Made by a program: the position numbers and the translations under genes | Shown: positions 33,049 through 56,130 of the stretch, in pieces | Layout: every line of letters begins with the position of its first letter | Numbering within the stretch: position 1 is the stretch's first letter | Origin: Anaerolineales bacterium | Lineage (GTDB): Bacteria; Chloroflexota; Anaerolineae; Anaerolineales; Villigracilaceae | Reading direction: 5' to 3' | Assembly: GCA_030834895.1 (NCBI GenBank) | Contig: JAUQXA010000032.1 | Coordinates: 124,001 to 188,000 of the forward strand | Length of the DNA: 64,000 nt | Notes under the pieces: model-generated | What the model saw: the letters and a program-made list of their open reading frames with translations, nothing else | The model's database searches: none | What the model was told of the DNA's origin: nothing

Positions 33049-33054
33049 CCTCTG

Positions 33055-33138
<84 letters not shown>

Positions 33139-33324: not shown

Positions 33325-33939
33325 ATGAAAAATCAAGTTTCAACTGCTCGAATGTCATCAAGCCACATTTTCTTGCGAATAATCAAGAAAAATCACCGGC
33401 AACTCCTGAACCTTGATGGAAAATTGAAGAAATTCAAATTGGAACTTGTGAAAACAAGCGGGGATGATCAAATTCCCGAACTTGGGGGAAAAATTCAGAC
33501 AATTGAAGATAAACTGGCTATGTCATCCTTCATCGTCATTGTTTTTTCCACGATGGCGCTTGAAGCATATATCTATGATTATGCCGCGCGCCACCTGACA
33601 GACACATTTGTTAAAGACCACCTAGACGGGCTCGACACATTCAGTAAATGGATTGTCGTGCCCGAATTAATCACGGGAAAGAGGCTTTCCCAACCCTCAA
33701 ACTGGCAGGGAGCGTTAAAGCGGTTGCTCAAGGCAAGAAACTCGGTTATCCATCACAAATCATCCGAACCACCGGCGTCATTCTCGGACATGCGAAAATA
33801 CCTTGAGAAACTGGAGGCGAATTCAGCAAGTATGTTTGAAACTGCCAAGCAATCCATCCAACTTCTTCATCAACTTGCTGATAAAATTACGGAAGCAGAC
33901 CCTGAGGAAGCTCCATGGGTTAATTCATATCTATCCTAA
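33325..33939 (+). CDS. HEPN-like protein, hypothetical
   Basis: 204 aa helical; KRLLKARNSVIHHKS contains an R-x4-H (RNSVIH) HEPN-type motif. Confidence 0.5.
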   Translation: MKNQVSTARMSSSHIFLRIIKKNHRQLLNLDGKLKKFKLELVKTSGDDQIPELGGKIQTIEDKLAMSSFIVIVFSTMALEAYIYDYAARHLTDTFVKDHLDGLDTFSKWIVVPELITGKRLSQPSNWQGALKRLLKARNSVIHHKSSEPPASFSDMRKYLEKLEANSASMFETAKQSIQLLHQLADKITEADPEEAPWVNSYLS

Positions 33940-33965: not shown

Positions 33966-34400
33966 ATGAGCTATCAAAAAATTATCATCGCTGGAAATCT
34001 GGGGCGCGACCCGGAAATGCGCTATATCCCGTCTGGACAGGCAGTTACAAGTTTCTCGGTTGCCGTCAATGAATCATACACCAACGCAAATGGCGAAAAA
34101 GTAAAAAAAACCATTTGGTTCCGTGTGACTGCCTGGGGGAAGCAAGCCGAGATATGCAATCAATATCTCAAAAAAGGGCAGATGGTCCTTGTCGAAGGGC
34201 GCATGAGCGCAGATCCCAACACTGGCGGTCCAAAGGTCTGGACAAAACAGGATGGCACTGTCGGCTCCTCATTTGAAATCACGGCTGCCACCGTACGTTT
34301 TCTTTCCACACGCGGTGAAGCAGGCGAAAGCGGACCTGTTGCTGGCGGGGGTGGCATGGAGATGGCCGAACTTCCTCCCGAAGACGATATTCCGTTCTAA
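33966..34400 (+). CDS. ssb: Single-stranded DNA-binding protein
   Basis: MSYQKIIIAGNLGRDPEMRYIPSGQAVTSFSVAVNE...WFRVTAWGKQAEICNQYLKKGQMVLVEGRM; acidic C-terminal tail ending DDIPF. Confidence 0.97.
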   Translation: MSYQKIIIAGNLGRDPEMRYIPSGQAVTSFSVAVNESYTNANGEKVKKTIWFRVTAWGKQAEICNQYLKKGQMVLVEGRMSADPNTGGPKVWTKQDGTVGSSFEITAATVRFLSTRGEAGESGPVAGGGGMEMAELPPEDDIPF

Positions 34401-34453
34401 TCTTGTAAATTACCGGGCTTCGGAAGTCCTTCAAAAAACTTTCGAAGCCTTAA

Positions 34454-34807
34454 TTGAGGGATAACCCCATGACCACTTCACAAACGCCTCCCAAACCTGC
34501 GGGGCCCGTTCTTGAACTCCCGGCCGACCTTGAGACCATATATGCCAACCTTGCGCGTATTGCCCACTCCCCAGCGGACATTGTGTTGGATTTTGCACAC
34601 CTTCTACCCGGTGAAACAAGGGCAAAAATTGGCGCCCGTGTAGTAATGACTCCGCTCAGCGCAAAATTGTTGGTAAAAGCGCTCACCGAAAACCTGGCTC
34701 GTTATGAGTCCGCCTTTGGCGAGATCAACCTGCCAACCAACAACTCACTCGCTGACAACCTCTTCCGTCCATTCCAACAACCGCCCGAACCACCAAAAGA
34801 ACCGTAG
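34454..34807 (+). CDS. DUF3467-like protein
   Basis: IYANLARIAHSPADIVLDFAHLLPGETRAKIGARVVMTPLSAKLLVKALTENLARYESAFGEI. Confidence 0.75.
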   Translation: MRDNPMTTSQTPPKPAGPVLELPADLETIYANLARIAHSPADIVLDFAHLLPGETRAKIGARVVMTPLSAKLLVKALTENLARYESAFGEINLPTNNSLADNLFRPFQQPPEPPKEP

Positions 34808-34813
34808 GAAATC

Positions 34814-35482
34814 ATGCACAAGCTCGAGCAAATCACTGACCGCATACGAAAGGCGTTCGATGCGCGCACGGCCGCGCGTGACCATGCACTTGCGCTGGCC
34901 CGTCAGTTGACCCGCGCCTGCTCGCTTGCCATTCGCGCCGTGCACCGCGATGAGGCCGATACCATGAATGCCCATTTGCAGGAGGCGCGGCAAATGGCGG
35001 ATACGCTACGCGATTCCCTGGCTTCATACCCTGATCTTTTTTACGCGGGATATACACAGGATGCGCTCAAGGAATATGTGGAAGCGAACGTCACCTGCGC
35101 GTTGATTCGCAACGAGCCACTTCAGACTCCCGAAGAGTTGGTCGTCGAACCCGCGACCTATCTCAACGGGTTGGCTGAGGTTGTCGGTGAATTAAGACGC
35201 CGCAGCCTGGATATCCTCCGTCACGGGTATTCTCCCGAAGTGGAACGCCTGCTGGGCATCATGGATGAAATTTATTCCATCATGGTCACCATGGACTATC
35301 CTGACGCCATCACCAACGGGCTGCGCCGTCAAACCGACCTGGCACGAGGCATCATCGAAAAGACACGCGGTGACATCACCTTTAGTCTGCGCGGCGAACA
35401 CCTCACCCAAGCCATCAGCAGGTTGAGCGCACAGTTGAACAGCAACCCAGATAACAGCGGCGGACAGGAAGGAAAGGGGTAG
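34814..35482 (+). CDS. Translin/TRAX family nucleic-acid-binding protein
   Basis: ALKEYVEANVTCALIRNEPL..PEELVVEPATYLNGLAEVVGELRRRSLDILRHGYSPEVERLLGIMDEIYSIMVTMDYPDAITNGLRRQTDLARGIIEKTRGDITFSLR follows the translin/TRAX pattern. Confidence 0.8.
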   Translation: MHKLEQITDRIRKAFDARTAARDHALALARQLTRACSLAIRAVHRDEADTMNAHLQEARQMADTLRDSLASYPDLFYAGYTQDALKEYVEANVTCALIRNEPLQTPEELVVEPATYLNGLAEVVGELRRRSLDILRHGYSPEVERLLGIMDEIYSIMVTMDYPDAITNGLRRQTDLARGIIEKTRGDITFSLRGEHLTQAISRLSAQLNSNPDNSGGQEGKG

Positions 35483-35485
35483 AAG

Positions 35486-36106
35486 ATGGCAAAAGGCGGC
35501 CGTCGTTATCCACTTGTCGTCTACACGCACATGATCAATCGTTGGTGGCCGGCAATCTTTACGCTGGGACTCGCCTTGCTTGCGTTGGCATGGGCGCTTC
35601 GCACTTGGGGCTTTGAAGAATGGCGCTGGTTTGCAACTGCCGGTGTTGCTGGATTCAATGTATTTGTTGGAATTTTACTGTTGATCCTGCGTAAAAGCGC
35701 ATACGTCCAGCCGTTCAGCGACCACCTGCGGTTGGCGACACCGTTGTTACGCCTGAACATTTCATATCGAAGAATTCGACGGGCTTCGTCGGCAAATATG
35801 GGCGCGTTATTCCCGCGGAATACCGTCTCAAGTTGGCGGGCGGAGATTATCGAGCCGCTGGCAAAAATGACCGCATTGGTGATCGAGTTAAACAGCCACC
35901 CAAAATCCCAGTCTTCATTGCGGTTGTTCCTGTCGCCGTTTTTCTTCAAGGATAAGAGTCCGCACTTCGTGATTTTGGTTGATGACTGGATGAGGTTCAG
36001 CGCCGAGCTTGAAAGCATGCGCACAGGCACGGGTTCCGCACCCGGACAACAGCAAAAACGCAGCACGAATTCGATACTTTCACGTCTGCCAGGCAAAAAC
36101 AAATGA
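35486..36106 (+). CDS. Two-TM membrane protein, hypothetical
   Basis: 206 aa, two N-terminal TM segments; directly downstream of the translin-like gene. Confidence 0.6.
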   Translation: MAKGGRRYPLVVYTHMINRWWPAIFTLGLALLALAWALRTWGFEEWRWFATAGVAGFNVFVGILLLILRKSAYVQPFSDHLRLATPLLRLNISYRRIRRASSANMGALFPRNTVSSWRAEIIEPLAKMTALVIELNSHPKSQSSLRLFLSPFFFKDKSPHFVILVDDWMRFSAELESMRTGTGSAPGQQQKRSTNSILSRLPGKNK

Positions 36107-36284: not shown

Positions 36285-36314
36285 GTTGCCGCTGAGTTCT
36301 CCCTCAGCGGCAAC
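36285..36314. terminator. Bidirectional terminator-like hairpin
   Basis: gttgccgctgag / ctcagcggcaac 12-bp perfect stem between convergent genes. Confidence 0.6.
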
Positions 36315-45699: not shown

Positions 45700-48600
45700 C
45701 TATTGGTCCGTAAGCACACTAATCAACACCCCGCGCACCACACGGCGGGACAGGTAGGATTCGGCCTTCGCCGAGAAGCTCTCGCAGGTGACAAGTGTCA
45801 GCCAGTTATAGTCTTCATGTTTGAACACATCATTAACCTTGTGCGGTTTGACCAGAACGCTTTCTTCGACCTGGTAAACGTAAGTCAAACCATAGGCATG
45901 GAGGAACATCAAATCGCCGGACTTCAAATCCTTGATGTAGGCAAAGGCTCCAGGCGCGTTCTTTTCATCCAACACATGCCCGGTCAGAACGGTGTTCCCA
46001 ACCCAGGTCGGGTACGCCGAGCCTTCCAGATAGCCGGCATTGTTTGCAAGCCAGGTCAAATCCCAACCGTTCTTGGTCATCTTGACGCCAACAATCGGGA
46101 CGTTCAAGCTGAGACTCGGGATCTCGAGGCGCATCTCCGACATATCCTTGTAGGCCAAGTCGGCGGGTTGTTCCGGCAGTTTGGTAACAGTACCGGGAGC
46201 AAAACCGGTGAGCGGGATGAAAGTGCCCGACGCAAGTGTGTTGCCAGTCCTATTTCCGCCACCACCGCGAGTATTACCGTCACCACCGCCTCCTCCGCCG
46301 CCATCGGTAATATTCACGTCAAAAGTGCGGACGAAATCAGTACCTGGCCCGCTGCTGCCTACCAAGGCAAGGTTACGATCAACCGGGTCGACAATGGATG
46401 TGGTTCCACAGATGAACAGGCGATATTTCCCGTTCGAGAGAGCCAGGCTGTTGTTAACCGTGAAGGTGGCAGTATATGTTGTGGCATCGTAATTAATGGT
46501 GCCGATTGTAACCTTCGTATCCGCCGGCGTTACAGCGCCTGCCGAACAACTGACTGTCTGGAAGGCCGCGGTATCGCCCAACTCACGGACGAGGATGAAG
46601 TTATCAGGGTTGGTTACATCGTCCGTGTCGCTGTCGCCGCTGGGATTGAACACGTCCTGGCTGAACTTCACACTGAACTGGTTGAAGCCAAACCTGACTA
46701 TTTCAGCCTCTTTGAGGACGCCGTCGCCTGTGTCGGGAGAGGTGTTAATTGTTACGACAGCCGGACCGCTCGTGTCGAAATACGCCACAGAATTATCGGT
46801 GCTGGTGCTGGCCGTATTGGGGTTACCGCTGGCATCCGTTACCGCACCCGCAGGAATGGATACAACCACTGTACCATCGTTAGCCATGCCCGAAATCGCA
46901 ACGTTGTATGTCAAACCGGACCCAGTGACGGCAGCGGCTGTGGCATTGGCTGAGCCGCCAATAACGATATCCGAATCTGTAAAGCCGGTCACCAGTTTAC
47001 TAAACTCAACGGTGAAGTTGATCGGGGAAACATTGGTCGGGTCAGACTGTGCCGCCGCTTGATTGATCGTCACGGTCGGGTTGGTTGTGCTGTACGTAAC
47101 TTCGTTATCCGTGCTCGTGCTGGCAGTATTCGGGTTGCCGGTGCTATCTGTCGCAACACCACCGCCAATTGTTGCGGTGACAGTGCCATCGGTGATCATG
47201 CCACTCACTGCCACATTGTAGGTTGTCCCGCTGCCAGTGACAGCCGCAGTGGTCGGGCCCGCCGTTCCACCCAGGGTGACATCCGCACCTGTGAAGCCAG
47301 AAACGGCTTCATTGAACTCGACCGTGAAGTTGATAGGCGAGGTGTTCGTTGGGTCAGCCTGCCCAGATGCCTGGTTGATTGTCACGGACGGACCGGATAT
47401 ATCGTAGGTAACAGAATTGTCCGTGCTGGTGCTGGCAATATTGCCGTTCCCAGCCGAATCCTGCGCGCGGTCGGCGGGGATGGTGGCAACTACTGTACCG
47501 GTGCCAGCCATATCGCTGACTTCCACGTTATATGTTGTGCCACTACCGGTGACCACCACGGTTGCCGCTCCAGCCGTCCCGGTGACATTAACATCGGCAA
47601 ATGTGAACCCGGTCACCGGTTTGCTGAAGATCACCGTGAAGTTGATCGGCGAAGTGTTCGTTGGGTCTGCCTGGCCGGATGCCTGATTGATCGTCACGGT
47701 TGGCGCGCCTGTATCGTATCTGACGTTATTATCCGTGCTGGTACTGGCCGCGCTGAGGTTGCCGGCCGCATCCACTGCGGCGGAGTCTGTGATCGTAACA
47801 AACACTGTGCCAGAGATGGACATGCCGCTGACGGCCACGTTGTAATTAGCGCCGCTACCGGTAATGACCATGGTGGTCGCGCCTGCCGTTCCACCCAGAT
47901 TGAGGTCCGCGATTGTAAAGCCAGTCACCGGTTCGCTGAATACCACCGCGAAATTGATCGGGGAAACTCCCGTTGGGTCTAATTGACCAGCCGCCTGTTC
48001 TATCGTGACAGTCGGCCCGGTTGTATCGTATATGACTTCGTTATCCGTGCTGGTGCTGGCAGCATTGGTATTGCCAACCGAATCGACGGCACCGCCAGTC
48101 GGGATCGAGGCAATTACCGTTCCGTCACTAGACATACCGCTGACGGTCACGGTATAAGTCGTGCCACTGCCGCTGACAGCCGCCGTGCTTGCGCCAGCCG
48201 AACCGCTGAGGAGAACGTCTGCATTTGTAAAGCCGGTCACCGCCTTGCTAAACACCACATCGAATGTGATCGGTGAAGCACTGGTCGGGTCGGCTTGGGC
48301 AGCGGTTTGGTTGATGGTTACAGTTGGGACATCGGCATCATAAGCCACATTGTTATCGGTGCTGGTGCTGGTCGCATTACCGTTCCCAGCCGCATCCTGC
48401 GCATTGCCCGCCGGGACGGTTGCAATCACGGTGCCTGAATTGACCATACCGCTGACCGCTACATTGTAGGTAGTGCCACTACCTGTCACAACCGCAGTGG
48501 TCGCACCAGCTGTACCTGACAAGGCGACATCCGCGCCTGTGAAGCCGGTCACCGGTTCGTTAAAGACCACCGTGAAGTTGATTGGTGAAGCATTGGTCGG

Positions 48601-51600
48601 GTCTGCCTGGGCTGCCGCTCGGTTGATTGTAACCGCCGGCGCGGTAACATCGTACAATACACTGTTATCCGTGCTGGTGCTGGCTGCATTCGTGTTGCTG
48701 GATACATCCTGGGCAACACCGGCTGGTATCGTCGCCATCACCGTGCCAGAATTGGACATGCCGCTGACTGTCACAGTGTAGTTGGCGCCGCTGCCAGAAA
48801 CAGTCACGTTCGTCGCGCCAGCCGTTCCGCTGAGAGAAACATCCGCGTTCGTAAAGCCGGTCACCGGTTTGTTAAAGATTACTGTGAAATTGATCGGCGA
48901 AGTGTTCGTTGGGTCGGCCTGACCAGCCGCCTGGTTGATCGTCACTGTGAGAGCGGTGTTATCGAATGTGACAGTATTATCCGTGGTGGTACTGGCCGCG
49001 TTACTATTGCCGGCCGCATCCGTGACCACGCCGGCCGCAATCGAAGCGATCACCGTACCGGAATTGGTCATGCCGCTGACCGCCACATTGTATGTGGGAC
49101 CAGCCCCTGTGATTACCGTCGTAGTCGCGCCGGCTCCACCGGACAAAGTGATATCTGTATCCGTAAAGCCGGTTACTGGCTCACTGAAGACCACCGTAAA
49201 ATCAATTGGTGAAGAGTTGGTCGGGTCTGCCTGACCAACCGCCTGGGTGATCGTCACAGTGGGTGCCGTCACATCGTACGTGACAACATTGTCCGTGCTG
49301 GTGCTGTTCGTATTGCCGTTCGCAGCAGAATCCTGGGCGCTATTCGCCGGGATCGTCGCAATCACCGTGCGGGAAACGGTCAAACCGCTGACTGCAACAT
49401 TGTAGGCGGTGCCGTCATTCGGGGGTATTTGAGTTACTGTAACCGTGAGAGGACCTGCCGGAACTCCGCTCAAAACAACATCTGCGTTCGTGAAGCCGGT
49501 TACCGGCTTGTTGAATATCACTGTGAAGTTGATCGGCCCAGCGTTTGTCGGATCCGCCTGACCAGCTGCCTGGTTGATCGTTACGGAGAGGACGGCGTTG
49601 TCGAACGTGACGGTATTGTCCGTACTAGTGCTGGCCAAATTGGTATTGCCAGCCGCGTCTGTGGCTACCCCAGCCAGGATCGAGGCGATCACGTCGCCAG
49701 AACCAGTCATGCCGCTGACCGCCACATTGTACGTTGTGCCGCCGCCGGTCACAATCGCCGTTGTCGCACCGGCCGCGCCGGAGAGTGTCACATCGCCGGT
49801 TACAAAGCCGCTTACCGGCTCGCTGAAGACCACCGTAAAGTTGATTGGCGACGCGCCGGTTGGATCAACCTGTCCGGCATCCTGGTTGATCGTCACGGTT
49901 GGGCGGGTAACATCGTACAGCACCTCATTATCTGTGCTGGTGCTGGCCGTATTGCCATTACCCGAAGTATCAACCGCCGCAACTGCCGGGATTGTCGCAA
50001 TCACCGTACCGGAACCGGTCATACCGCTGATGGCCACATTGTAGGTGGTACCTCCACCGGTTACAGTGGCAGTCAGCGTACCCGGCGCTGTGCTTCCAGT
50101 GGTGAGCACATCGGCGCTGCTAAAACCGGTCATCGCTTCGCTGAACACCACGGTGAAGTTGATCGGCGAGCCATTGGTCGGATCCGCCTGACTGAGGGAC
50201 TGGTTGACAGTTACAGTCGGTGGAGTGGCATCATAGATGACGATGTTATCCACGCTAGTGCTGGCCGTGTTGCTATTCCCGGCTGTATCCTGCACGCCGC
50301 CAGCCGGAATGGTGGCAATCACCGTGCCGGAGCCGGTCATTCCGCTCACAGCCACATTAAAGGTTGTCCCGCTTCCGGTGATGACGGCCGTCAACGCGCC
50401 AGGCGCAGTACCGCCGGTCAGGTTCACATCAGTGTCAGCAAAGGTCGAACTATTGACCGGTTTGTTGAATATCACCGTGAAGTTGATCGGTGCCGTACCG
50501 GTCGGGTCGGGTTGTCCGGTGTCCTGGTTGATCGTCACCGTCAATGCGACGTTGTCATACGTGACGGTGTTGTCCAGGCTGGTACTGGCAAAGCTGCTGT
50601 TACCGGCGGCATCCTGCGCGGCATTTACGAACACAAAAGGCGTGACCGTACCGCTGCCTGACATACCGCTGACCGCCACAGTGTAGGTGGTACTGTCGAT
50701 GGCAGTAATAACTGCCGTAGTTGCGCCAGCCGTGCCGGTCAGGTTAATATCCGCGCTTGTCAAGCCGGTCACTGGCTCGCTGAAGACCACGGTGAAATTG
50801 ATGGGGGACGCGCTGGTCGGGTCTGCTTGAGTCGCTGCCTGGTTGATCGTCACGCTTGGGCGTGTGGTATCGTAGATGACCGTGTTATCAGTACTGGTAC
50901 TGGCAGTGTTTGAATTTCCGGTTGCATCCTGGGCAATGCCGGCTGGAAGAGACAGGGTAACCGTTCCATCCGCGGCCATACCACTGATTGCCACATTGTA
51001 CGTTGTGCCACTGCCGGTGGTGATCACCGCTGTCGTTGGGGCAGCCGTGCCGCCGAAATTACCGACCAAATCGGCATTGGTGAAACCGGTCACCGGTTCG
51101 CTAAAGACCACTGTGAAGTTAATCGGGCCAGTGTTGGTTGGGTCGGGTTGAGTGGTTTCCTGGTTGACCGTCACTGATGGGGCGACCGTGTCATACAGGA
51201 CGCTGTTGTCCGTACTGGTGGAGGCGACGTTGGCAATGCCGGTCTGATCTATCGCGGCACCTGCCGGAACGCTGGCGGTCAACACACCTTGCGCCATGCC
51301 GGTCACGGCCACATCGTAAGTCGTGCCGCTGCCGGTCACTGTCGCAGTGCCGGAAGAGAGAGTGACATCCGTTCCATCAAAGCCGTTCACCGGTTCGCTG
51401 AAGACCACAGTAAAGTGAATCGGGGAGACGTTCGTTGGGTCGGACTGACCAGACGCCTGGTTGATTGTCACAGTCGGGGCAATCGTGTCATACACTACAA
51501 TATTGTCTACACTGGTGGAGGCAGTGTTGGTGTTTCCAACTGCGTCCACTGCAGCGTCGGCTGGAATACTGGCAGTTAGAGGACCTTGGACCATGCCAGT

Positions 51601-54600
51601 CACCGAGATGTCGTAAGTTGTGCCGCTACCGGTCACAGTGGCGGTGCCGGAAGAGAGGGTGACATCCGTTTCATCAAAGCCGGTTACCGGTTTACTAAAC
51701 TCCACAGTAAAGTGGATCGGCGAGAGGTTCGTCGGATCAGGTTGACCTATGGCCTGCTCCACCGTCACGGTGGGCCGGGTAATATCATAGTAAACCTGAT
51801 TATCCGTGCTGGTGCTGGCGGCGTTGTCATTGCCAGCCGGGTCTGTGACTACGCCCGCCGCAATATCTGCAATGACGGTTCCGCTGCCAGCCATACCACT
51901 GACGGCCACATTGTACGTGGTGCCACTCCCAGTCACTGTTGCGGTGGTGGCGCCGGCTGTGCCGCTGAGCGTCACATTGCCGGCGACAAACCCGGTTACC
52001 GGCTCGCTGAATATAACGGTGAAGTTGATCGGCGAAGTATTTGTTGGATCTGCTTGAGCAGGCGGAGTTGTCTTCTGGTTGACCGTCACGGTTGGAGCAA
52101 CAGTATCGTAGGTAACTACATTATCTGTGCTGGTGGAGGCCGTACTGCTATTTCCAGCAAGGTCAGTAACTGCCCCTGCCGCAATTGTTGCAACAACGTC
52201 TCCACTGCCCGTCATGCCGGCGACTGCCACGTTGTATGTTGTATCGTTATTCGGGGCAATTTCAGTGACCGTGCCTGTAAGAGTGCCGCCAACCGTACTG
52301 CCGGTGAAACTTACATCACCGGCGGCAAATCCAGCCACCGCCTCGTTGAACACCACAGTGAAGTCAATCGGGGAAGCATTGGTCGGGTCGTTCTGGCTGC
52401 CCGCCTGGTTGATGGTTACGTTGGGAGCAGTTCGGTCAAGCGTGACCGTGGGACCCGTGGTTTGTGCATTCCCAACTGCTGCGATATTAATCACGGCGTT
52501 GGCTGCCAGCCTGAGAATCAGTGTCCCTTCGGAACATCCAGAAACCGTCACGGGATAACTGTTGCCAGTAGGCGCACCTACCGCAAACGTACAGCTGGTA
52601 GCTGTACCCACATTGGAGAAGTCGGTATTGGTCAGCCCGGAGACCGCCTCATCAAAGGCGACATTGAAGATGGGGCTGGCAACATTGGTGATGTTGTCCG
52701 TATTGGAAATGCCCGAGTCCGAAGTGATTTGCAGATCGATCGCCACAATCGGTGCAATAGAGTTATAAATCACACTATTGTCAGTGCTCGTGCTGGGGAG
52801 GTTGCCGTTGCCAGCCGCATCTGTAGCGACGTCTGCGGCGAGACTGGCAATTACCGTAAGGCCAGGACCGCTGGTGGTCATGTTACTAACTGCCACGTTG
52901 AAGGTCGTCGGGCCGCCGGTTACATTCGCAACGGTCGGGTTGGCTGTACCACTCAAGCTGACATCCAATCCGGTAAAGTCATACGCGGCTTCGCTAAAGG
53001 CCGCCGTAAAGTTTATTGGGGAAACACCAGTGGGATCCAGCTGGCCAGCCGCCTGGTTGATCGTGACTGTGGGACTGGTCCGGTCAATCGTGACCGTCGG
53101 CCCAGCGGTCTGCACATTCGGGCTTCCCGAAGCATCGGTTACCGCGCCAGCTGCCAGATCAAGGACTAGCGTTCCCTCGGAACACCCGGAAACTGTTATT
53201 GGATAGGTATTTCCGGTGAGCGTACCAACTGCAAACGTACAGCCTGTAGCGGTTCCTGCATTGGAGAAATCCCCGCTGGCAAGCCCGTTGATATCCTCGG
53301 AAAAAGTGACATCAAAGACAGGACTGACTGCATTGGTAAGATCATCCGTATTCGAAATGCCCGAATCCGAAGCATCCTGGAGATCAATTACCGCCGTTGG
53401 AGCCGTGGCATCGTAGGTGACTGTGTTATCGGTGCTGGTGCTGGGGGTGTTGGGTGTGCCATTTACATCGTGGGCTACGCCAGCCGCAATCGAGGCAATC
53501 ACTGTCCCATTGCCAGTCATACCGCTGACCGCCACGTTGTAGGTGGTCCCACTCCCGGTCACAACCGCGGTTGTCGCGCCGGCTGTGCCGGAGAGGGTAA
53601 CGTCACCGGTCGCGAAGTCAGTGACCGGATAGGGGAAAACCACTGTGAAGTTAATAGGTGAAGTGTTCGTTGGGTCTGCCTGACCAACCGCCTGGTTGAT
53701 CGTCACGGGCGGAAGGGTGTAATTCACCTTGACCTGGAGTTGATCCAGGGAGAAATCGCTGAAAAAGCTGCCGCCCCCTCCTCCAGTAATCTGAATCCGG
53801 AAGTTTACGTCGGAAAAACTGGCTGGCGAGAATGGAATTCCCCAATTATCACCAGGGCGATTACCTATTCTCATGGTCTTGTCAGGACTTGCAGGTTCAG
53901 GAGCAAAAGCCGTGTCAATTACATTGGCAAAATTGGCGCCGCCATTTTCAGAGATGGAAATCCCCAGGTTGCGCCCATCGGTATGTCCTTCGAGTCCGAC
54001 CTCGACATAATTGATGGTGGAGCCCGCCGGAATATTGAGATGGAAGTCCCGGTAAACTACAGACTCTCCCGAACCACAGGCGGTAAAACTATTGTTTGAT
54101 GTATAGGCATTTGCACTGCCCGAACAGCTACTGGACGAGACGGCAGTCGGGGCAGACCAACCGCCCTCGAACGCGGCGGCAATCGTACGATTGAAGGTTA
54201 TATTGTTGAGTGTGTAATTGTTAAATGTGCCAACAGAAGCACCATCAACCAGGAGATTGGACAAAATATAAGTTGCGGAGGGCACGCTTTCAAAGGCCTG
54301 GGCCGCGCCGCCAACCACGTTTATCGTGCCATTGGGATTAATCGTTCCGCCCAGATCGGCTGAGGCTGTGATGGTAAAACCCTGGAGAGTGACTGTATTA
54401 TCAGTACTGGTGCTCGGGCCCGTGTTGCCATTATCGGCGTCATCGAAGACACGGCCCGGAGTAGTAATCGCGGCGGTCACTGTGCCCGCAATCGACAAGT
54501 TGCTGACGGCGACATTATAGGTATTGGAGCCGAGGTCGGTAATGTTGATGTTGGCGCCGGTAAATACTCCCGATGCAGTCGTACCAGCCGTACCGGTCAG

Positions 54601-56130
54601 GGTAATATCGGAGCCGGTAAAAAAGTTGATGTGTTCGCTGAACACAACCGTGAAGTTGATCGGTTGGCCGTTGGCCGGGTCAGCCTGCGTTGCAGCCTGG
54701 TTGATCGTAATGGTGGGCGCAATCCCATCGATTTCCAGCCCCTCGTTGGCGCTCAATGAATTCGGCCCTCCCGGAGTTGGCAGAGTCAGGATCGCATTAT
54801 TTCCAGCGGCATCTCTGATGGTGCCGCCATTCAAAACTAGGGAAGTGGTGGCTACATAGTCAAGGTCAGGAGAGACATCGCCCGCCTGGACGGTGTATGT
54901 GAAGTATATGGTGGTTGTCCCGCTCCCGCTCGCATAGTTGATCACTCTGTCCACCGTACCGGTCTCAAGCGTCAGCTGCGGCGTACCGGTTACAGTCACA
55001 TTTTCGTCGAAGATGACCCTGACATCGATGGTGTCGCCTATACCGTATGCACCAGCAGGATCCGGGGAGGAAACATACGATACAGCAGGTGCGGCAGTAT
55101 CAACCGTTATGGTGGCATCCTGATCGTCATTGTAGGTGACCGGCAGCGTAAGTGTCGTGGCATTGGACACATAAGCTGTCAAGGTCTGACCGTTGGTAGG
55201 GGCCGCAACGATATCGTAAGTAATGAGGTATTGAACAGCGGCGGTGGCTACATTTATATTGAGTCCTGTAAATGTCGCCGTTGTGCCACTAAATGTGATG
55301 CCGCTCCCTATTTGGGTATCTATTCCCGAATCGTATTCCTCGTTGTTATTGACATCAGTCCAGATTTTGACGCCATTTGCAGCGACGTTCGCCGTGTTCG
55401 TTCCAGTGACCACCAGTCCAGTAACGGTATCAGTGCCCGAACTTGTGGAAAGCGTAAATGTGGATACGGCCTGGTTGGTCTCCGAGCCATTTACAGCCTT
55501 GTTGGCAGGACTGCTTCCATCGCCAATAATAGTGGAGGGAAGTGTGTATGTAATGGTTACCTGAATGTAATCAACGGACCCCGTTCTATTGTTGTTACTT
55601 TCGTTCTCAACGGATAGTCTCACCCCAAAATTGGCTGCATTAATCTCCGCGGGCGTCCATGTGGTTCCCCACAGATCATTCGTTGCGCCATAAGTGGCCG
55701 TGCCCATGGATGTAGGCCAGTCATTTGAAGATGCATGATCCGTGCCTGCACTCGCTCCGGCTTTGACCAGGTAGAGATCCATATCCTGTACACTGTCATT
55801 GAATTGGTTGGAAGAACTTTGGCGCATGATTGTCACCTGAATCCCGTTAATAGTTGCGTTCGACGGGATGGCGAAACCAAAGTTAGTGCCTTGCAGGTAT
55901 TCAGAAACAGCGGAGTTTCCGAGGTTTGTAGTGGCATAGTTGGTATCGTCGGCAGTAATGAAGCCTTCATTGTTCCAAGCGACATTCCCGGGGCCACCTA
56001 CCTCAGCACCTGCGCCGGCAAAATTCGGTCCGGCAGTTGCCGCGTAAGCCGGCGTCACCGGCATGGCAGCCAGCATCAGGGCGACGATAAAAATCGCAGA
56101 GAAAACCTTGGAAGTCCATTGGTGTTTCAT
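45700..56130 (-). CDS. Giant secreted Ig-like repeat protein with C-terminal sortase domain (3476 aa)
   Basis: Signal peptide MKHQWTSKVFSAIFIVALMLAAMPVTPAYAA; about 23 Ig-like repeats (TVTINQAAGQADPTNTSPINFTVVFSEPVTGF...); C-terminus LEIPSLSLNVPIVGVK...NTVLTGHVLDE...WLTLVTCESFS...SRRVVRGVLI (sortase His/Cys/Arg). Confidence 0.9.
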   Translation of the reverse strand: MKHQWTSKVFSAIFIVALMLAAMPVTPAYAATAGPNFAGAGAEVGGPGNVAWNNEGFITADDTNYATTNLGNSAVSEYLQGTNFGFAIPSNATINGIQVTIMRQSSSNQFNDSVQDMDLYLVKAGASAGTDHASSNDWPTSMGTATYGATNDLWGTTWTPAEINAANFGVRLSVENESNNNRTGSVDYIQVTITYTLPSTIIGDGSSPANKAVNGSETNQAVSTFTLSTSSGTDTVTGLVVTGTNTANVAANGVKIWTDVNNNEEYDSGIDTQIGSGITFSGTTATFTGLNINVATAAVQYLITYDIVAAPTNGQTLTAYVSNATTLTLPVTYNDDQDATITVDTAAPAVSYVSSPDPAGAYGIGDTIDVRVIFDENVTVTGTPQLTLETGTVDRVINYASGSGTTTIYFTYTVQAGDVSPDLDYVATTSLVLNGGTIRDAAGNNAILTLPTPGGPNSLSANEGLEIDGIAPTITINQAATQADPANGQPINFTVVFSEHINFFTGSDITLTGTAGTTASGVFTGANINITDLGSNTYNVAVSNLSIAGTVTAAITTPGRVFDDADNGNTGPSTSTDNTVTLQGFTITASADLGGTINPNGTINVVGGAAQAFESVPSATYILSNLLVDGASVGTFNNYTLNNITFNRTIAAAFEGGWSAPTAVSSSSCSGSANAYTSNNSFTACGSGESVVYRDFHLNIPAGSTINYVEVGLEGHTDGRNLGISISENGGANFANVIDTAFAPEPASPDKTMRIGNRPGDNWGIPFSPASFSDVNFRIQITGGGGGSFFSDFSLDQLQVKVNYTLPPVTINQAVGQADPTNTSPINFTVVFPYPVTDFATGDVTLSGTAGATTAVVTGSGTTYNVAVSGMTGNGTVIASIAAGVAHDVNGTPNTPSTSTDNTVTYDATAPTAVIDLQDASDSGISNTDDLTNAVSPVFDVTFSEDINGLASGDFSNAGTATGCTFAVGTLTGNTYPITVSGCSEGTLVLDLAAGAVTDASGSPNVQTAGPTVTIDRTSPTVTINQAAGQLDPTGVSPINFTAAFSEAAYDFTGLDVSLSGTANPTVANVTGGPTTFNVAVSNMTTSGPGLTVIASLAADVATDAAGNGNLPSTSTDNSVIYNSIAPIVAIDLQITSDSGISNTDNITNVASPIFNVAFDEAVSGLTNTDFSNVGTATSCTFAVGAPTGNSYPVTVSGCSEGTLILRLAANAVINIAAVGNAQTTGPTVTLDRTAPNVTINQAGSQNDPTNASPIDFTVVFNEAVAGFAAGDVSFTGSTVGGTLTGTVTEIAPNNDTTYNVAVAGMTGSGDVVATIAAGAVTDLAGNSSTASTSTDNVVTYDTVAPTVTVNQKTTPPAQADPTNTSPINFTVIFSEPVTGFVAGNVTLSGTAGATTATVTGSGTTYNVAVSGMAGSGTVIADIAAGVVTDPAGNDNAASTSTDNQVYYDITRPTVTVEQAIGQPDPTNLSPIHFTVEFSKPVTGFDETDVTLSSGTATVTGSGTTYDISVTGMVQGPLTASIPADAAVDAVGNTNTASTSVDNIVVYDTIAPTVTINQASGQSDPTNVSPIHFTVVFSEPVNGFDGTDVTLSSGTATVTGSGTTYDVAVTGMAQGVLTASVPAGAAIDQTGIANVASTSTDNSVLYDTVAPSVTVNQETTQPDPTNTGPINFTVVFSEPVTGFTNADLVGNFGGTAAPTTAVITTGSGTTYNVAISGMAADGTVTLSLPAGIAQDATGNSNTASTSTDNTVIYDTTRPSVTINQAATQADPTSASPINFTVVFSEPVTGLTSADINLTGTAGATTAVITAIDSTTYTVAVSGMSGSGTVTPFVFVNAAQDAAGNSSFASTSLDNTVTYDNVALTVTINQDTGQPDPTGTAPINFTVIFNKPVNSSTFADTDVNLTGGTAPGALTAVITGSGTTFNVAVSGMTGSGTVIATIPAGGVQDTAGNSNTASTSVDNIVIYDATPPTVTVNQSLSQADPTNGSPINFTVVFSEAMTGFSSADVLTTGSTAPGTLTATVTGGGTTYNVAISGMTGSGTVIATIPAVAAVDTSGNGNTASTSTDNEVLYDVTRPTVTINQDAGQVDPTGASPINFTVVFSEPVSGFVTGDVTLSGAAGATTAIVTGGGTTYNVAVSGMTGSGDVIASILAGVATDAAGNTNLASTSTDNTVTFDNAVLSVTINQAAGQADPTNAGPINFTVIFNKPVTGFTNADVVLSGVPAGPLTVTVTQIPPNDGTAYNVAVSGLTVSRTVIATIPANSAQDSAANGNTNSTSTDNVVTYDVTAPTVTITQAVGQADPTNSSPIDFTVVFSEPVTGFTDTDITLSGGAGATTTVITGAGPTYNVAVSGMTNSGTVIASIAAGVVTDAAGNSNAASTTTDNTVTFDNTALTVTINQAAGQADPTNTSPINFTVIFNKPVTGFTNADVSLSGTAGATNVTVSGSGANYTVTVSGMSNSGTVMATIPAGVAQDVSSNTNAASTSTDNSVLYDVTAPAVTINRAAAQADPTNASPINFTVVFNEPVTGFTGADVALSGTAGATTAVVTGSGTTYNVAVSGMVNSGTVIATVPAGNAQDAAGNGNATSTSTDNNVAYDADVPTVTINQTAAQADPTSASPITFDVVFSKAVTGFTNADVLLSGSAGASTAAVSGSGTTYTVTVSGMSSDGTVIASIPTGGAVDSVGNTNAASTSTDNEVIYDTTGPTVTIEQAAGQLDPTGVSPINFAVVFSEPVTGFTIADLNLGGTAGATTMVITGSGANYNVAVSGMSISGTVFVTITDSAAVDAAGNLSAASTSTDNNVRYDTGAPTVTINQASGQADPTNTSPINFTVIFSKPVTGFTFADVNVTGTAGAATVVVTGSGTTYNVEVSDMAGTGTVVATIPADRAQDSAGNGNIASTSTDNSVTYDISGPSVTINQASGQADPTNTSPINFTVEFNEAVSGFTGADVTLGGTAGPTTAAVTGSGTTYNVAVSGMITDGTVTATIGGGVATDSTGNPNTASTSTDNEVTYSTTNPTVTINQAAAQSDPTNVSPINFTVEFSKLVTGFTDSDIVIGGSANATAAAVTGSGLTYNVAISGMANDGTVVVSIPAGAVTDASGNPNTASTSTDNSVAYFDTSGPAVVTINTSPDTGDGVLKEAEIVRFGFNQFSVKFSQDVFNPSGDSDTDDVTNPDNFILVRELGDTAAFQTVSCSAGAVTPADTKVTIGTINYDATTYTATFTVNNSLALSNGKYRLFICGTTSIVDPVDRNLALVGSSGPGTDFVRTFDVNITDGGGGGGGDGNTRGGGGNRTGNTLASGTFIPLTGFAPGTVTKLPEQPADLAYKDMSEMRLEIPSLSLNVPIVGVKMTKNGWDLTWLANNAGYLEGSAYPTWVGNTVLTGHVLDEKNAPGAFAYIKDLKSGDLMFLHAYGLTYVYQVEESVLVKPHKVNDVFKHEDYNWLTLVTCESFSAKAESYLSRRVVRGVLISVLTDQ
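46780..54760 (-). repeat. Tandem array of about 23 coding repeats (about 0.3 kb each)
   Basis: Recurring 'gttgggtctgcctg', 'gtgctggtgctggc', 'ttgtaggttgtgcc' blocks; protein-level unit TVTINQ...STSTDNTVTYD. Edges approximate. Confidence 0.85.

Follow-up and report, generated by a model that had tools for sequence, protein, structure and literature searches.

Crystal structures of archaeal translins have been solved, but we know of no clear cellular role for these proteins. The eukaryotic Translin–TRAX assembly is an endoribonuclease complex and C3PO processes tRNA precursors; in fission yeast lacking RNase H2, genome instability is suppressed by Translin (PMC9246224). In archaea, TRAX genes occur together with SepRS and endonuclease V (PMC5424206, PMC8762117), and bacterial translins have been covered by Gupta, Kale & Kumar (2012, J Mol Evol 75:155), as that work is cited in PMC5424206, PMC3834833 and PMC8762117. 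Here we describe such a protein in the window, a 64,000-nucleotide stretch of the genome of an Anaerolineales bacterium (Chloroflexota). The initial annotation described translin/TRAX as best known from eukaryotes and archaea; the homologue is real, but bacterial translins had already been described, and the gene is not rare, being widespread and part of the core gene set. What is new here, and also the most informative feature, is the operon context in Anaerolineae, which the initial annotation overlooked: translin is the third cistron of an ssb–DUF3467–translin operon with its own SSB clade. We found no report of an ssb–translin operon in the open-access literature.

Identity, predicted fold and distribution

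The gene occupies positions 34814-35482 on the forward strand, with a GTAGGA motif standing before its ATG start codon, and encodes a protein of 222 residues in which both strings quoted by the initial annotation, LKEYVEANVTCALI and YLNGLAEVVGELRRRSLDIL, are present. This protein is very likely a bacterial TRAX-type translin. A phmmer search of the PDB matched its residues 9-189 to AfTRAX of Archaeoglobus fulgidus (3zc1, E = 4e-23; 3zc0, E = 1e-22; ~32% identity), and further to NEQ131 of Nanoarchaeum equitans (4e-9; ~21% identity), Drosophila TRAX being reached at 0.3 only. When a profile of 20 relatives was used, the matches extended to AfTRAX (3.5e-37), NEQ131 (4e-14), human TRAX (3pja, 8e-6) and Drosophila TRAX (2e-5). 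The AlphaFold2 model, built with 40 relatives, is all helical (mean pLDDT 95.3) and displays the translin-superfamily fold. Its best Foldseek match in the PDB is AfC3PO (3zc1, TMt 0.91, rmsd 1.7 Å), and the ranking descends from 3zc1/3zc0 through the NeC3PO structures 5jr9, 5jrc and 5jre and the human TRAX chains of 3pja to the translins, including 1key, with a probability of 1.00 for 3zc1, 5jr9, 3pja and 1key. As far as prediction allows, the fold is settled as that of a translin, closest to the archaeal TRAX-type proteins, and the translin/TRAX homology first read from the letters is borne out by sequence, profile and predicted fold alike. Together with the NCBIfam matches given below, these results rule out a chance resemblance.

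Family models treat this protein unevenly. In a single-sequence Pfam search it scores 22.8 bits against PF01997 (cut-off, 25.9), and this borderline score probably explains why a PF01997 profile search of its own genome returned nothing at E<=0.001. The family matches 31 of 40 relatives at E<=0.001 (best 4.3e-7), and its cut-off misses the branch to which the window translin belongs. The PRK14562 models of NCBIfam (NF011156-NF011161) do match, with E values up to 1.5e-78, and carry the name 'haloacid dehalogenase superfamily protein' for members of the translin family; this seems to be an annotation error, one that hides translins in bacterial genomes. That the protein could truly be a haloacid dehalogenase, as its best NCBIfam matches are called, has virtually no chance of being correct: no HAD family came up in the Pfam search, the significant PDB matches are translin-family structures, and the all-helical model lacks the alpha/beta fold of that superfamily, so that this identity was rejected.

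Translin matches were found in 168 of 301 genomes across Chloroflexota, almost always as a single copy. Among the closer relatives the gene was detected in 139 of 151 genomes, and in 95 of the 100 of good quality; within the order, translin counts among the core genes and is single-copy. The named loci come from Chloroflexota, mainly from Anaerolineae, with Bellilinea and Flexilinea as examples. When 40 bacterial translins were placed in a tree with AfTRAX as the sole archaeon, they grouped class-wise within Chloroflexota: the Anaerolineae stood on one side of a branch (support 96/93), and the Dehalococcoidia-like and Ktedonobacteria-like sets, whose class labels were inferred partly from gene order, each fell on one side of a branch as well. 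The distribution looks like old vertical inheritance inside the phylum.

Acidic residues of the predicted active site

The protein carries an acidic quartet, E87, E90, E122 and E126, that is invariant in 130 of 130 bacterial relatives aligned with AfTRAX and NEQ131. E87 and E90 are the Glu pair of the (Q/K)EYVEA motif, which is also Glu in the two archaeal proteins, and E126 sits in the GEL motif; the conservation of the EYVEA and GEL glutamates, as originally proposed for the single protein, extends to every one of these relatives. The third acid of the active site, which we take to be D193 in human TRAX, belongs to the (A/G)Dxx(G)E motif: it is Glu (E122) in all 130 bacterial sequences and Asp in AfTRAX and NEQ131. 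The statement of the initial annotation that TRAX-type acids are retained is right in that all four positions are acidic, but it overlooked this conservative Asp-to-Glu swap.

The AfTRAX crystal sequences differ at precisely this residue, 3zc1 reading FADAVGEL and the RNA-bound 3zc0 FAAAVGEL; apparently, the depositors of 3zc0 inactivated the protein there. Since Ala replaces Asp in this structure, the position matters, and the presence of E122 in place of Asp could alter or abolish cutting. Judged from sequence, nuclease activity is plausible for a bacterial translin that keeps the four acids, and the uniform Asp-to-Glu change allows the catalytic model to be tested cleanly. The same change in all 130 sequences might instead mark lost or changed catalysis, in which case the protein would form a cage that binds ssDNA or RNA like the eukaryotic translin homo-octamers and aids SSB2, the product of the neighbouring ssb2 gene, without cutting. 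The operon with an SSB gene, which suggests a role on the DNA side, and the fact that NeC3PO was solved with ssDNA (5jre) would both suit such a cage. We nevertheless judge it rather unlikely, because four acids that remain invariant despite a mean column identity of ~55% in the phylum would be unusual if catalysis had been lost, and because the fold matches TRAX ahead of translin.

Gene order around translin and a separate SSB clade

In the window, four genes follow one another on the forward strand: ssb, DUF3467, translin and a gene for a predicted membrane protein. The first gene, ssb2 (33966-34400; PF00436, 106 bits), encodes the translin-linked SSB, 144 residues long with the C-terminal tail EDDIPF. 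The second (34469-34807; PF11950, 75 bits) encodes a DUF3467 protein of ~112 residues whose likely start is the ATG at 34469, the longest ORF starting from a TTG at 34454. Only 6 nt separate it from translin, and 3 nt separate translin from the last cistron (35486-36106), which encodes a 206-residue predicted membrane protein with two hydrophobic segments seen by eye and no Pfam family above cut-off. After the operon, a pattern scan found an intrinsic-terminator-like 12-bp hairpin (36285-36314, forward strand), weak evidence if taken alone. Between ssb2 and the DUF3467 gene lies a 13-bp RNA hairpin (34415-34450, forward strand), with an MFE of -23.2 kcal/mol and z = -3.97 when the stretch 34401-34470 is folded. 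Strong hairpins of other sequence, as judged against mononucleotide shuffles, occupy the same gap in 29 of the 38 loci in which it measures at least 30 nt, some of them then followed by T runs; a function as attenuator, as processing or stability element, or as a repeat insertion site is possible. Elsewhere in the window, a 3476-residue ORF on the reverse strand (45700-56130) carries 14 Big_12 Ig-like domains and, at its C-terminus, a sortase domain of its own.

This arrangement recurs. An SSB gene stands immediately 5' of translin in 75 of 80 named loci, with DUF3467 between the two in 68 and alone in 7, often 0-30 nt away; the other 5 show DUF3467 but no detected ssb, and 4 of these lie on short contigs. 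Outside Anaerolineae, an adjacent ssb was found in none of 16 translin loci. DUF3467 also adjoins translin in further members of the class (G192, G240 and G144), and one member (G152) has ssb and DUF3467 together with translin absent there. Within the family, almost every locus has the gene for the predicted membrane protein beside translin; further out, it was not found there. Just 3' of translin in a Bellilinea locus (L032:6235-6756, reverse strand), an ORF resembles by eye a Cas4/RecB-type PD-(D/E)XK nuclease and has a conserved Cys near its C-terminus. On the 5' side, a DnaN-like gene immediately precedes ssb–translin in one locus (L034), and RNase HII-like and YraN-like genes precede translin in the Dehalococcoidia-like loci L040-L045; these neighbours, named by inspection, are weak additional pointers to genome maintenance. 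Shared gene order alone is no proof of a physical or functional link.

The same neighbourhoods bear on whether the protein might be a nuclease for tRNA or general RNA processing, in line with the role in tRNA maturation that has been suggested for C3PO, with an incidental linkage to ssb. Archaeal TRAX genes do accompany SepRS and endonuclease V (PMC5424206, PMC8762117), and tRNA precursors are processed by eukaryotic C3PO (PMC9246224), but in the bacterial loci the recurrent neighbour is an SSB gene and no tRNA or tRNA-enzyme neighbour is conserved. A tRNA occurs in 3 of 40 translin loci, never adjacent; the sole tRNA of the window, tRNA-Leu (CAG; 33054-33138, reverse strand), is divergent from the operon and was not seen in relatives. 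We thus regard an RNA-processing role as quite improbable.

Just 5' of ssb2, a gene at 33325-33939 (forward strand) shows a weak resemblance to HEPN (RiboL-PSP, E = 0.005, below cut-off). Such a neighbour could speak for the operon being part of a defence module, anti-phage or mobile, a possibility that we consider very unlikely: this gene is found near translin in only ~5 loci, none of translin, SSB and DUF3467 is covered by a PADLOC model, and translin has the distribution of a core gene. Moreover, no translin relative was found by tblastn in phages and plasmids, where AfTRAX as a query gave chance-level plasmid matches only, nor by a search of viral contigs.

The SSBs encoded next to translin are themselves a distinct type. 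They fell on one side of a branch, apart from the housekeeping SSBs, with a support of 97/99, which became 100/99 after long-branch rows had been dropped and SSBs of the wider phylum added, and the type was seen solely within Anaerolineae. In these proteins the acidic ...IPF C-terminus is retained, the tail through which SSBs usually dock other proteins. The genome of the window has several SSB genes and 7% contamination, and SSB genes were therefore counted in cleaner genomes, those of the class carrying 1-6. In three genomes (G136, G128 and G176), the sole SSB found is of the translin-linked type; G128 has this SSB, yet no translin was detected in it. The pairing of SSB type and translin is strong but not absolute.

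The DUF3467 protein is single-copy in its own genome and has no PDB match by sequence. Its AlphaFold2 model (pLDDT 80) consists of three strands and a helix in the order b-b-b-a. The PDB fold matches of this model are non-significant (best E 0.11), and several of them, MRP1/MRP2, PC4/Sub1 and Pur-alpha, are single-strand- or RNA-binding proteins, only a hint that the predicted fold may be a single-strand-binding one. In the open-access literature, we found a single mention of DUF3467, in a chlorhexidine study.

Proposed function and comparison with C3PO systems

On balance, we lean towards a homo-oligomeric, metal-dependent RNase/ssDNA-binding translin cage that would act with the translin-linked SSB. 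Like AfTRAX, the protein most likely self-assembles into a homo-oligomer that forms a closed cage, and the presence of one translin copy with no paralogue partner fits a homomer. E87, E90, E122 and E126 would hold a divalent metal inside the cage, where short RNA, either single-stranded or nicked, would be cleaved. In Anaerolineae, one transcript probably carries the dedicated SSB paralogue, the small DUF3467 protein and translin; given such a shared transcript, the probable target of translin is single-stranded nucleic acid that lies exposed on the chromosome, for example leftover RNA fragments in R-loops, at primers or in repair gaps. The SSB would either recruit translin or shield the DNA strand. 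Based on the conserved operon, we hypothesize that SSB and translin act jointly in genome maintenance.

A more elaborate proposal, possible if doubtful, is a three-protein module of the Anaerolineae, made up of the dedicated SSB, DUF3467 and a TRAX cage, in which the SSB delivers single-stranded nucleic acid (e.g. R-loop or primer RNA) to the translin nuclease. If true, bacterial translin would have a role in genome maintenance, paralleling that of fission-yeast Translin in cells without RNase H2 (PMC9246224). In any case, the conserved operon with its clade-specific SSB gives leads to the partner and substrate of translin that are direct and open to testing.

The window protein belongs to the eubacterial set of the translin superfamily, as delineated by the NCBIfam models PRK14562.1-x and, to the extent that later papers relate it, by Gupta, Kale & Kumar (2012). 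Eukaryotic C3PO, composed of translin and TRAX (3pja, 3axj), has the same fold and the TRAX acidic motifs, but it uses two paralogues per complex whereas the bacterial system has one gene per genome, a single copy being the rule in almost every genome where a match was found. NEQ131/NeC3PO of Nanoarchaeum equitans (5jr9, 5jrc, 5jre), whose structures include an ssRNA complex (5jrc) and an ssDNA complex (5jre), resembles the window protein in its fold, its EYVEA and GE motifs and its single gene, and differs by an Asp at the third acid and by its low identity (~21%). AfTRAX/AfC3PO of Archaeoglobus fulgidus (3zc0, 3zc1) shares the fold, acids at all four positions and the single-gene organization; it is archaeal and has Asp as its third acid, whereas the window protein is bacterial, has Glu at this position and is encoded in an ssb–DUF3467 operon.
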